Assembly: GCF_017742995.1 (NCBI RefSeq)
Contig: NZ_CP072425.1
Location: 4,039,001-4,103,000, forward strand
Direction: 5' to 3'
Length of the DNA stretch: 64,000 nucleotides
Origin: Pseudoalteromonas viridis
GTDB taxonomy: Bacteria > Pseudomonadota > Gammaproteobacteria > Enterobacterales > Alteromonadaceae
Shown here piece after piece: positions 1-24,004 of the stretch. The notes beneath the pieces were generated by a model, which worked only from the letters and a program-made list of their open reading frames with translations, made no database searches and was not told the DNA's origin. Numbering within the stretch: the first letter of the stretch is position 1; every line of letters starts with the position of its first letter. The translations under genes and the position numbers were made by a program.

Positions 1-623
1 TCTCCATTATTGGCGAGGTAACGCACAGTGTTGAGCACTGTTTGCTGGCAATAGAAGGCACAACACTTAAAGACATCAATAAGATATTTGCTCACCACCA
101 ACCTTTTGCGCAGTGCAGCCGTTTCTTAGAAGGGCTTGGCGACCTGACGCAAGAAGCCTGTGATTCAACCTCCAGCGCACTGAAACTGGCGGCAGATACG
201 CCAAACAGTGCTGCCATCGGCTCTGCACAGGCTGGTAAAGGGTTTGGTCTGGAAGTCCTCAAAACCGGCCTGGCCAATCAGGCTGAAAACCACAGTCGCT
301 TTATTGTGGTTGCCCGTCAGCCCCTGCAGGTATCGACGCAAATTCCAACCAAGACTAGCCTTATCATGGCAACCAAACAGAAAGTCGGTTCACTGGCCGA
401 CGCGCTGATGGTGTTTAAAGAGCACAATATCAATATGACTAAGCTGGAGTCTCGTCCAGTGCCAGGCAACCCGTGGGAAGAAGTGTTTTATGTTGATCTG
501 CAGGCCAATGTCGCGGATAAGCAAGTACAAAGCGCCCTTGAATCACTGAAAGAACACACTCAGTTTGTGCGCATTCTGGGTTGCTACCAGAGTGAATCTC
601 TGCAAGCTGTAGAAGTGGTGTAA
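1..623 (+). CDS. pheA: Bifunctional chorismate mutase/prephenate dehydratase (P-protein), C-terminal part
   Basis: The frame is open from the window edge (first whole codon at base 3) to TAA at 621-623, giving about 206 residues. The P-protein makes prephenate from chorismate and phenylpyruvate from prephenate in phenylalanine synthesis. What is visible is the end of the dehydratase domain (IEGTTLKDINKIFAHHQPFA, TKTSLIMAT) and the ACT regulatory domain with the ESRPVPGNPWEE stretch, the known phenylalanine-binding ESRP motif, so feedback inhibition is likely retained. The chorismate mutase half lies outside the window. It converges on tyrA, the sister enzyme for tyrosine. The stop codon is also the first three bases of a dispersed repeat. 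Identification is firm from ACT motif, length and neighbour. Confidence 0.95.
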   Translation, partial: SIIGEVTHSVEHCLLAIEGTTLKDINKIFAHHQPFAQCSRFLEGLGDLTQEACDSTSSALKLAADTPNSAAIGSAQAGKGFGLEVLKTGLANQAENHSRFIVVARQPLQVSTQIPTKTSLIMATKQKVGSLADALMVFKEHNINMTKLESRPVPGNPWEEVFYVDLQANVADKQVQSALESLKEHTQFVRILGCYQSESLQAVEVV

Positions 624-784
624 TACCAATTTCACTTAATACCTGTTCAATTTGAAGGAGCAAATATGCCGCTAACGGTGTTAAAAATTTCTCATTTAGA
701 CCAACTAAATAGCAAAATTTTTGCCTGGTTATCGACGATAATTTCTCGCCTCAAAATAGCACACTTAATTAAGCAAATTGGTAT
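621..784 (+). repeat. Dispersed palindromic repeat, copy A (MITE-like)
   Basis: This 164-bp unit runs from TAATACCAATTT to AAATTGGTAT and recurs at 22666-22833 and 23841-24004. The ends are inverted copies (ATACCAATTT), and the arms continue to match imperfectly for about 45 bp on each side (CTTAAT, GTTC, ATTTGA, AAATATG on both). The centre is a further hairpin: AAAAATTT with AAATTTTT and ATTTAG with CTAAAT. The first TAA is the pheA stop codon. A GGAG followed five bases later by ATG lies inside. There is no transposase, so it would have to be a non-autonomous element; no clear target duplication is visible. Confidence 0.85.
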
Positions 785-830
785 CAAAAACAAGAGCGAG
801 GCTTGCCTCGCTCTGCCATCAATGCATTAA
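666..830 (+). CDS. Mini-ORF inside repeat copy A (54 codons, doubtful)
   Basis: ATG at 666 is preceded by GAAGGAG with a five-base gap, a strong ribosome-binding site. The frame starts MPLTVLKISHLDQLNSKIFA and in copies B and C ends there with TAG; in copy A that codon is TGG, so it reads on to TAA at 828-830, four bases into the tyrA 3' end. Only the first 20 codons are shared among copies. Third-base and conservative changes are seen between copies (ACG/ACT, GAC/GAA), but the sample is too small to claim selection. It may be a real micropeptide or an accident of the palindrome. Confidence 0.2.
   Translation: MPLTVLKISHLDQLNSKIFAWLSTIISRLKIAHLIKQIGIKNKSEACLALPSMH
786..813 (-). terminator. 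Rho-independent terminator of tyrA
   Basis: GAGCGAGGC and GCCTCGCTC form a perfect 9-bp stem (794-813). Reading on the minus strand it is followed by TTGTTTTTG, placed just after the tyrA stop. The repeat copy A ends right beside it. Confidence 0.8.
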
Positions 831-1966
831 GAAATAACCTTTGCGTCATTGGCCTTATTAAGCAGACCGCGACTTTGTCGCAAGAAGGTTTGTGCACTGT
901 CAGAGAAATAGCTTTTCGCCTCTTCAAACGCCGCCATCAGCGCTGCTTTATCGCCCGCCTGTAGACGACTCAGGGTTTGTGCAAAAGTATCCTGATAACT
1001 GGCAAGCAAACCTTCTACTTCATCAAATTGTGCCAGCATAATATCGGTGTAGAGCTCTCCCGATTGCGCAAACAAGCGCCCGACCATCATCAGCTCAAGC
1101 TGGTAAATAGGCGATGAGCAGCTTCTTAGCTCTTCCAGCGTATGACACTGACGGGCCAAAAACTGGCCGTATACAAACGTCGTGAGGTGGCGCATGACCT
1201 GGATGATCTGCATAGCCTGATCGTGCTTTTTCGCTGCCATATTTGCCAGATGACAACCCCAGATCTGCAATTGCTCAAGCAGTCCCTGATACGCCTGCTC
1301 GCCTCGGCCATCACACACCACCACGGTTTGCTTCACCCAATGTGAAATATCCGGGCCAAACATGGGGTGCAGGCCAACAACAGGACCTGCATGTTTGTTC
1401 ATCATGGCCTGCAAGGGTGCTTGTTTAACCGAGGTAATATCGGCGAGCACGCAATCTTCGGGCAGCTCAGGCAACTCATTGATCACCTGCTCCAGTGCAT
1501 TAATCGGCACACTCAACAACACCAGTTTGGCGTCGGCCAAAATCGCCTCTTGCTCGGCCTGTTGTGCTTTGTCGAGTATGCGTACTTGATACCCGGAGCG
1601 CTCAAGCTGGCGGGCGAATAGCTGGCCCATTGCCCCTGCACCACCCACGATGACCACAGGCGATAACTGAGGGGCCGCGCACGCCAGTTCGCTTTGCTGA
1701 TTCTCATAGGCCTCACGCATCATGCGGCGCAAGATGTCTTCGACCAGGTCTGGGTTTACCCCTTTGTGCTCGGCTTGTGCTCGCCGGGCTTCGATCAGGC
1801 TGGCTTCACGTTGTGGCACATGTAAAGGCGCCCCGGTGGCTTGCTTAATTTTACCGACCTGCTCGGTAAGCTCGCGGCGCTGTGCCAGCAGATCAACCAA
1901 CGCGCTGTCACAGGCGTCAATTTTCTCCCGCAGCAAAGCGAGTTCAGATGTTTGACTCATTCCCAT
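827..1966 (-). CDS. tyrA: Bifunctional chorismate mutase/prephenate dehydrogenase (T-protein)
   Basis: 379 residues, close to the E. coli T-protein. It isomerises chorismate to prephenate and oxidises it with NAD+ to 4-hydroxyphenylpyruvate, the tyrosine branch. Residues 1-95 are an AroQ-type chorismate mutase helix bundle (LREKIDACDSALVDLLAQRR); from about residue 104 comes a Rossmann fold with GGAGAMG at 108-114, then GLHPMFGPD, typical of the dehydrogenase. The frame offers ATG at 1966 or at 1960; a GGGA directly before the second does not decide, so the N-terminus is uncertain by two residues. It is monocistronic with its own terminator and convergent with pheA; 155 bp separates it from rplS. 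Confidence 0.97.
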   Translation of the reverse strand: MGMSQTSELALLREKIDACDSALVDLLAQRRELTEQVGKIKQATGAPLHVPQREASLIEARRAQAEHKGVNPDLVEDILRRMMREAYENQQSELACAAPQLSPVVIVGGAGAMGQLFARQLERSGYQVRILDKAQQAEQEAILADAKLVLLSVPINALEQVINELPELPEDCVLADITSVKQAPLQAMMNKHAGPVVGLHPMFGPDISHWVKQTVVVCDGRGEQAYQGLLEQLQIWGCHLANMAAKKHDQAMQIIQVMRHLTTFVYGQFLARQCHTLEELRSCSSPIYQLELMMVGRLFAQSGELYTDIMLAQFDEVEGLLASYQDTFAQTLSRLQAGDKAALMAAFEEAKSYFSDSAQTFLRQSRGLLNKANDAKVIS

Positions 1967-2060
1967 AGTGTAAACTATTATTTACTTCAGTAAACCAAAA
2001 GATACACCCAGTCTAACAGGAAGAAATAGGATAAGAAAGTGGATTGGAATTATAGGATAC

Positions 2061-22833: not shown

Positions 22834-23169
22834 GATAGCTTCTTCGTCTTCCTCTCCGGTACGGATACGGACGACACGTTCGACTTCGGTGACAAAGATT
22901 TTACCATCACCAATTTTGCCGGTTTGCGCCGTTTTCAAAATCACGTCAATAGCGCGGTCTACGTCTTCTTCTGCCAACACAATATCTAATTTTACTTTTG
23001 GCAGAAAGTCGACCATATACTCTGCACCACGATATAGCTCAGTGTGCCCTTTTTGCCGGCCAAAGCCTTTTACTTCACACACGGTCATACCGGTAATACC
23101 TATGTCGGATAACGCTTCACGTACGTCATCCAGCTTAAATGGTTTAATGATGGCTTCTATCTTTTTCAT
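22831..23169 (-). CDS. glnB: Nitrogen regulatory protein P-II (GlnB)
   Basis: 112 residues. P-II senses 2-oxoglutarate, ATP/ADP and, through uridylylation, glutamine, and tunes glutamine synthetase and NtrB. The T-loop [19 protein letters not shown] has the target Tyr51; the ATP-binding [10 protein letters not shown] and [10 protein letters not shown] tail are intact. The C-terminus (TGEED.AI) and absence of a linked amtB favour GlnB over GlnK. The stop codon coincides with the start of repeat copy B. Confidence 0.95.
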
Positions 23170-23303
23170 GGTTGATTCTTATCCCTTTGGTAATGCGTCG
23201 ATTTTAGACAATCCCATAAAACAAGGCAAACAAAGCAATTGAATAAATAAACAAAAAGACGCACTATACTAAGTAGTCTTTATTCCTGTTTTTGGCTGTA
23301 ATC

Positions 23304-23843
23304 ATGAAAAAAAATACAGGCTTCACGCTTTTTGAGTTGGTTATCACTATTGCCATTTTGGGTGTACTGGCCACATTGGCATTCTCATTCAGCGGCGGTC
23401 TGACCACCTCTACCCGCGCCGAAGCTTACCTGAGAGAACTGAAACGCACCGTAACCTTTGCCAGGGCACAAGCCACAGCAACCGATGAGATCATTATTAT
23501 ATGCCCGGCAACCGCAGCCCTGGTTGAAGCCAACAACAACTTTGTCTGCCAGGACAATTGGCAGAACAATCGAATTGCAGTCTTCCTCGACAGGGACAAT
23601 AACGGTTCCTACACCACAGGGACCGACGACCTATTGCGCGTGATGGAGCAAGTCCCTGATAATGATGGCCTGACGTTTCCAGCAGCCAGCTTACGCTTTG
23701 ACTCTAGCGGCCGTACCGCGATGGTGCAGTCCAGCAGCTTTATTTATTGTCCCGCTGCTACAGATTTTCCGAATCAGCAGCTGGAGGTAAGCGTTGTGGG
23801 TTCCGCACTCTACCGGGGCGACACTACACTCACCTGTAACTAA
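23304..23843 (+). CDS. fimT: FimT/GspH-type minor pseudopilin
   Basis: 179 residues from ATG 23304. The short leader MKKNTG ends before FTLFELVITIAILGVLATLAF, a class III prepilin signal cut by PilD, with the mature Glu5. The body carries the GspH/FimT pattern: ARAQATATDEIIIICP, a disulphide-capable pair, LDRDNNGSYTTGTDDLLRV and VVGSALYRGD near the end. FimT proteins are minor pilins of type IV pili, some implicated in DNA binding. A TTG four codons upstream is an unlikely start. The stop codon is the first codon of repeat copy C; the gene lies divergent from glnB. Confidence 0.88.
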   Translation: MKKNTGFTLFELVITIAILGVLATLAFSFSGGLTTSTRAEAYLRELKRTVTFARAQATATDEIIIICPATAALVEANNNFVCQDNWQNNRIAVFLDRDNNGSYTTGTDDLLRVMEQVPDNDGLTFPAASLRFDSSGRTAMVQSSSFIYCPAATDFPNQQLEVSVVGSALYRGDTTLTCN

Positions 23844-24004
23844 TACCAATTTCACTTAATACCTGTTCAATTTGACGGAGCAAATATGACGCTAACTGTG
23901 TTAAAAATTTCTCATTTAGAACAACTAAATATCAAAATTTTTGCCTAGTTATCGAACATATTTTCTCGCCTCGAAATGGAACACTTAATTAAGCAAATTG
24001 GTAT
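23841..24004 (+). repeat. Dispersed palindromic repeat, copy C (MITE-like)
   Basis: 164 bp, same length and orientation relative to its upstream gene as copy A. TAA at 23841-23843 is the fimT stop. The inner mini-ORF (23886-23948) starts 45 bases after that TAA, exactly as in copy A, and ends in TAG after 20 codons. Terminal ATACCAATTT / AAATTGGTAT and the inner hairpin are conserved. Confidence 0.85.

Follow-up and report, generated by a model that had tools for sequence, protein, structure and literature searches.

A palindromic repeat behind stop codons of Pseudoalteromonas as a probable IS630-type miniature element with a 3-bp TNA target duplication

The window analysed here, a stretch of 64,000 nucleotides of Pseudoalteromonas viridis (contig NZ_CP072425.1, positions 4,039,001 to 4,103,000, in a genome of two contigs and 5.55 Mb), contains three copies of a palindromic repeat directly behind the stop codons of pheA, glnB and a fimT-like gene. 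This repeat is likely a non-autonomous miniature inverted-repeat transposable element (MITE) of a subgroup of the IS630 family, moved in trans by a transposase that duplicates a 3-bp TNA target. An earlier note on this DNA had the repeat begin with the TAA stop codon and knew of no family with such a property. The TAA does adjoin the unit, but it is the duplicated target, the unit itself running from TACC to GGTA, and a MITE of an IS630-family subgroup does fit. As duplication of TNA regenerates a TAA or TGA, stop codons would be harmless landing sites, which would account, simply and generally, for the apparent stop-codon specificity of a transposon and points to an IS630 subgroup duplicating 3 bp and not TA. 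Moreover, with their clean empty sites the repeats offer a family of markers for the whole genus.

Target duplication and empty sites

The same triplet stands on both sides of the unit at 120 of 175 independent sites, where shuffling gave a mean of 56 and a maximum of 73 in 2000 trials; independent sites were counted by letting a single copy stand for each set of related left flanks, with the P. viridis genome taking precedence. Equal triplets were likewise found at 73 of 86 sites of G083, which was retrieved separately and given its own gene model (102 matches counted, 94 copies from 90 regions). A first tally of 126 sites had 86 with equal triplets, namely TAA/TAA at 51, TTA/TTA at 31 and TGA/TGA at 4. 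A palindrome carrying its own TAA would yield TAA at one end and TTA at the opposite one, an arrangement that was rare in this tally (TAA/TTA at 3 sites, TTA/TAA at 1), and therefore the TAA is a target duplication. Duplication of TA is excluded by the TGA/TGA and TCA/TCA sites, in which no TA occurs. The duplicated target is 3 bp long, TNA, and mostly TAA or TTA.

Unoccupied counterparts agree with this picture. Among 13 matches of adjacent flanks two are clean empty sites (L100/L135 and L108/L213), the other 11 having partial units or diverged flanks. The first reads GAGTTA-unit-TTAACTGG when filled and GAGTTAACTGG when empty, the second CTATTAA-unit-TAAAAAC and CTATTAAAAAC, with the triplet present once in either empty form. 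At the glnB stop, P. viridis has ATCTAA-unit-TAAGCCCTG, whereas G033 reads ATCTAA-GCCCTG and G041 ATCTAA-ACCCTA. The same stop is followed in G036, G062, G044 and G060 (L486-L489) by stubs of about 30-36 bp that start with TATCAATT and have a TTAA-rich core, and by no such stub in G041, G033 and G078; the stubs may be what is left of an old, decayed insertion, or they may stem from separate hits.

A probable IS630-family partner

In the related genome G060, two frames behind a TACCAATTTGATTAAATTTATGATC end at locus L242 match the IS630-family transposase (NF033545; PF13358, DDE_3), with 99.9 bits, just under the cut-off of 100, and 129.6 bits against NF033545. An IS5/IS1031 partner, which TNA duplications had at first suggested, was dropped as IS630 pieces lie behind the TACCAATT end. 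Six relatives of this IS630 element were taken from plasmid records of Photobacterium, Vibrio and Aeromonas (L515-L519 among them), five of which show both ends. These five encode a transposase, which the MITE does not, and measure 1070-1111 bp; they share with it ends of the form TACCAAT...TG-TC and equal flanking TNA triplets, the latter in four of five cases (TAA/TAA in Photobacterium toruni, TAA/TAA and TCA/TCA in Vibrio sp. HDW18, TCA/TCA in Aeromonas media; unequal TAA/TTA in V. halioticoli). The sixth, from V. crassostreae, has an IS5-family gene between its pieces. Outside TACCAAT, the MITE consensus and the ends of the insertion sequences (IS) agree at 11-16 of 24 positions, as counted over 16 comparisons with shuffled means of 6.4-8.8. 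The ends of the MITE are thus common to an IS630-family element. As a rule, members of this family duplicate the dinucleotide TA; the MITE and its IS relatives duplicate TNA instead.

From these shared ends and flanks we infer that an IS630-family transposase would move the MITE in trans. In such a process, the transposase of an IS with its own TACCAAT...TG-TC ends would mobilise the unit into a 3-bp TNA target, and a TAA stop codon that received the insertion would be copied, leaving the reading frame and the stop of the gene preserved, with the unit sitting between the stop and, where present, the native terminator. Any copy disrupting a gene or a promoter would tend to disappear, so that survivors gather just behind genes, where TAA stops make up a large share of the TNA sites.

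The MITE also lies, twice and at different sites, inside the transposase gene of its presumed partner in G060. At L242 (G060:C2 near 1956537) a MITE copy truncates the IS630 copy; L234 (G060:C2 near 41217) is a second IS630 copy, about 99% identical, with the MITE inside it and TTA on both sides.

The element family and its copies in the window

The repeat is short, multi-copy and bounded by terminal inverted repeats, and contains no transposase gene. The P. viridis genome has 46 sites with the ends TACCAATT/AATTGGTA, in forms of 68-70 bp (a deletion), 160, 171, 176, 208 and 219-220 bp; the overall range is 159-220 bp, plus a few truncated copies. These length forms have common ends and differ by internal modules, which suggests exchange between copies. 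In L025 (171 bp), L211 (208 bp) and L216 (219 bp), an alternative loop longer by 11 bp and a 48-bp insert recur, the family as a whole having them singly, together or not at all. A first search gave at least 119 matching stretches, 80 of which were listed, and the named genomes among the matches listed belong to Pseudoalteromonas rubra and allied strains (hereafter the rubra group); chance loci of other genera (L041, L071, L099, L105) were left out. In a survey that scored five candidates per genome, so that misses may be false, 67 of 147 genomes had a match; apart from P. viridis itself and one genome of another family, these were same-genus relatives, 65 of the 85 listed. The repeat matched nothing in a phage collection, and Rfam gave no match above the gathering score in the window. 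One region of G056 (C1:3563482-3564995) has four MITE copies in the same orientation with an exact spacing of 450 bp, a tandem duplication carrying the MITE.

In the window, the first copy occupies 624..783 on the plus strand (160 bp) behind pheA, whose product has PDT, CM_2 and ACT domains; the stop codon TAA of pheA at 621..623 is the left copy of the target, whereas the right one, at 784..786, has decayed to TCA. The pheA stop of G060 is also occupied, there by a copy of 208 bp flanked by TAA/TAA. The second copy lies on the minus strand at 22667..22830 behind glnB (P-II domain) and measures 164 bp rather than 160 because of a 4-bp insertion near its gene-facing end. Its flanks read TAA/TAA on the strand of the gene, and on the plus strand TTA at 22664-22666 and again at 22831-22833. 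Of these two triplets, 22831..22833 is the native glnB stop, since a stop follows the C-terminus of the protein in 14 of 14 relatives, and the distal copy at 22664..22666 is missing at the G041 and G033 empty sites. The third copy, at 23844..24003 on the plus strand (160 bp), stands between the TAA stop of the fimT-like gene (GspH and N_methyl domains) at 23841..23843 and the right target copy TAA at 24004..24006. By their domains, the three flanking genes are genuine. The three copies face their genes with the same one of their two ends, which we name L and which abuts the TAA in each, in agreement with the equal orientation to the gene reported before. The description as an imperfect inverted repeat with an inner hairpin stands as well: the arms within each unit are 68-70% identical, the three units match one another at 150/164, 148/160 and 154/164 aligned positions, and the hairpin appears in folds of both strands of the pheA copy. 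The glnB and fimT-like copies are inverted relative to each other, with 1337 bp between their outer ends (R; window 22667-24003), a layout like that of a composite transposon.

Placement relative to stop codons

That the repeat always sits at a stop codon is true of the window only, as exact contact with a stop was found at 16 of the 46 sites of the whole genome, 15 by the L and one by the R end; 14 of these 16 genes have Pfam domains. Genes were called with a purpose-built, uncurated dicodon finder to which genes broken by the unit are invisible. For the null, TWA triplets of non-coding DNA were pooled with the stops, and the share of exact stops in this pool amounts to 4.0-6.2%. Elsewhere the exact share was 11/43 in G060, 7/59 in G078 and 13/90 in the named 8-kb loci; for G078 taken alone it does not differ significantly from 8% (p = 0.19). 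The independent sites of the rubra group have an exact stop in 36 of 199 cases (p = 5e-10) and G083 in 16 of 94 (p = 1e-6), so that in both sets exact-stop copies are 3-6 fold above the 4-6% null; placement with no genome-wide preference for stops, which the earlier note named as evidence contrary to its idea, is therefore not what was found. A third set of eight genomes, with 52 of 60 loci usable and one of unclear orientation, gave 11 of 52 (p = 4e-5), about 4-fold over an assumed null of 5%. In four public chromids the asd gene of HL-AS1 ends exactly on the TAA before the unit, one of three annotated copies at an exact stop (NC201 is unannotated at its copy).

The exact stops form part of a wider enrichment just behind genes. 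The zone of 0-30 nt behind genes holds 81 of 199 rubra-group sites, against 12.7% expected, and 35 of 94 sites of G083, against 11.5%. Among all TWA sites of this zone, exact stops account for 38.5% in the rubra group (40.2% motif-weighted) and 30.6% in G083 (36.1% motif-weighted); among the occupied ones they are 36 of 81 and 16 of 35. Most of the stop enrichment thus follows from the acceptance of TAA as a target, combined with the position of the copies shortly downstream of genes, and recognition of stop codons is not needed for most of the phenomenon. In this regard, the non-random placement proposed earlier holds, whereas the targeting of gene ends read into it is mostly unnecessary. A context table covering 150 of the 199 rubra-group and 80 of the 94 G083 sites showed for the rubra group a 5.6-fold enrichment of exact convergent sites and a depletion of divergent regions, to a ratio of 0.2. 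Selection against harmful sites would be the simplest cause of such a 3' bias, and an insertion bias may have a part in it.

Several observations weigh against this account of the MITE. Regarding its partner, no intact IS was found in the P. viridis genome, where no search with an IS630 protein was made; the absence of PF13586 matches there is no test for IS630, this being an IS5-type model; six lone TATACCAATT sites have no partner end; and the only IS630 piece is an N-terminal fragment (L009:1-108, C1:757448-757555), which has 64% identity to the G060 transposase over 36 residues and lies about 1.4 kb from a MITE copy. Regarding placement, exact stops are more frequent in the P. viridis genome than at the other rubra-group sites (16/46 vs 20/153, p = 0.002). 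Counted by context, the zone has 34/69 exact stops against 38% in the rubra group and 15/30 against 31% in G083 (pooled 49/99 against 36%, p = 0.004), in the P. viridis genome by itself 15/24 (p = 0.01), and with the third set included 63/134 against 39% (p = 0.036), so that a 1.3- to 1.6-fold excess persists unexplained. Avoidance of promoters finds no echo in G083, whose divergent regions are undepleted (10/80 vs 13.5%, ratio 0.93), and the loss of intragenic copies is an assumption, given a gene finder blind to broken genes and two copies inside a transposase gene. The 160-bp form is conserved throughout its interior, with a mean column identity of 89% over 77 copies from 12 genomes (of 84 picked), a value that is overstated as the copies of distant genomes are their best-scoring matches. 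Finally, an orientation bias of the rubra group is unexplained: in tandem contexts up to 100 nt from the stop the L end points toward the gene in a ratio of 39:10, beyond 100 nt in one of 19:19, and the count up to 100 nt elsewhere is 12:9 in G083 and 7:8 in the third set, together 19:17, which differs from 39:10 (p = 0.01).

The persisting excess in the zone, together with the 3-6 fold enrichment over the TWA null, is what one would expect if the insertion step itself were targeted to stop codons or transcript ends, for instance by sensing of termination or of local DNA structure. We regard this as unlikely: 163 of the 199 independent sites are not exactly at a stop, exact stops are occupied within the zone about as often as TAA stops occur among its TWA sites, insertions occurred inside the IS630 transposase gene too, and where no stop is involved the sites show a weak motif at the level of DNA, with A at positions -3 and -2, G at -1 and T at +5. 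The tabulation of copies by distance and orientation, which had been proposed as a check, thus confirmed the enrichment at stops, whereas most copies lie off exact stops and the orientation bias is confined to the rubra group.

Transcript, orientation and coding capacity

Past the unit, terminator-like sites occur within 90 nt in 12 of the 35 exact cases and in 21 of the 42 near ones, compared with 82 of 295 control stops, and no intrinsic-terminator-like site lies inside the unit in any of the 77 gene-side cases, a result on which a terminator role was rejected. With terminators past the unit and none within, the unit is probably transcribed together with the upstream gene. At L364 (1662-2519), on a plasmid of Pseudoalteromonas sp. 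CuT4-3, the annotated gene of a mechanosensitive channel extends 19 bases into the matched stretch and so seems to take its end from the unit.

Cotranscription leads to the question of whether gene-end copies are kept for a function of their transcript, as a 3'-UTR (untranslated region) element acting in mRNA stability or processing, a role reportedly played by YPAL of Yersinia. Such a role could be hinted at by the orientation bias up to 100 nt in the rubra group, which vanishes farther away, and would be in line with terminator-like sites past the unit in 33 of the 77 gene-side cases and with the conserved interior; moreover, copies at exact stops in any context show an orientation of 28:8 in the rubra group and lean likewise elsewhere (17:9, not significant, p = 0.17). 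Against it, RNAalifold gave no support for a conserved fold in 77 copies (14 pairs, two of them with any double change, covariation term -0.03), the antisense strand of the single copy folded, that of pheA, is more stable than the sense strand (z = -4.9 and -2.3), and G083 and the third set show no tandem bias up to 100 nt. The mRNA 3' structure put forward in the earlier note accordingly found neither covariation nor a terminator on its side, and a 3'-UTR function appears improbable to us. No better than a long shot, at the same level, is a narrower version in which the P. rubra group alone would have co-opted the unit as a directional 3'-UTR module, one orientation being kept within 100 nt behind genes. 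If that were true, the 160-bp interior, conserved across the genus though free of coding selection and covariation, might harbour a site bound by a protein or an RNA with an effect on the mRNAs upstream.

A further reading takes the unit for a small gene, as one frame is open across the whole consensus and in 50 of 72 gap-free copies, the only frame of this kind. However, synonymous, non-synonymous and stop changes number 51, 142 and 10, against 51, 140 and 11.6 expected for non-coding DNA, third positions show no excess of changes, and the frame is broken in the 171- and 219-bp variants. With no coding selection in the substitution pattern, this hypothesis was rejected and has hardly any credit left.

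Comparison with known repeats

Copies of YPAL, the RU-2 palindrome of Yersinia, reportedly lie often close downstream of stop codons and are cotranscribed. By this reported placement YPAL/RU-2 is the closest analogue, likened here by description. In the reviews PMC2229807 and PMC2759123, YPAL is an intergenic palindrome of about 168 bp, with termini devoid of TA, internal inverted repeats and duplications of 3 to 26 bp (PMC2229807); the Pseudoalteromonas MITE, with its terminal TACC/GGTA and 3-bp TNA duplication, does not fall under that description. The same reviews cover ERIC/IRU (RU-1), of 127 bp and with a TA duplication (PMC2759123), in contrast to the 160 bp and TNA of our element, which by description resembles this palindromic enterobacterial MITE in its open frames and TA termini. 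No description of the element in Pseudoalteromonas and no TNA-duplicating IS630 were found in the literature, weak negatives both, as most subscription papers and ISfinder lie outside the coverage. By its working, the element is akin to RUP of Streptococcus pneumoniae, a 107-bp non-autonomous repeat linked to IS630-Spn1 and inserted at targets containing TA (PMC2229807), and we class it as a MITE of the IS630 type whose duplication, TNA of 3 bp, is a variant. Both have ends in common with an IS630-family element and copies within IS genes, a likeness of description, and they differ in that RUP targets TA whereas the Pseudoalteromonas MITE duplicates TNA.

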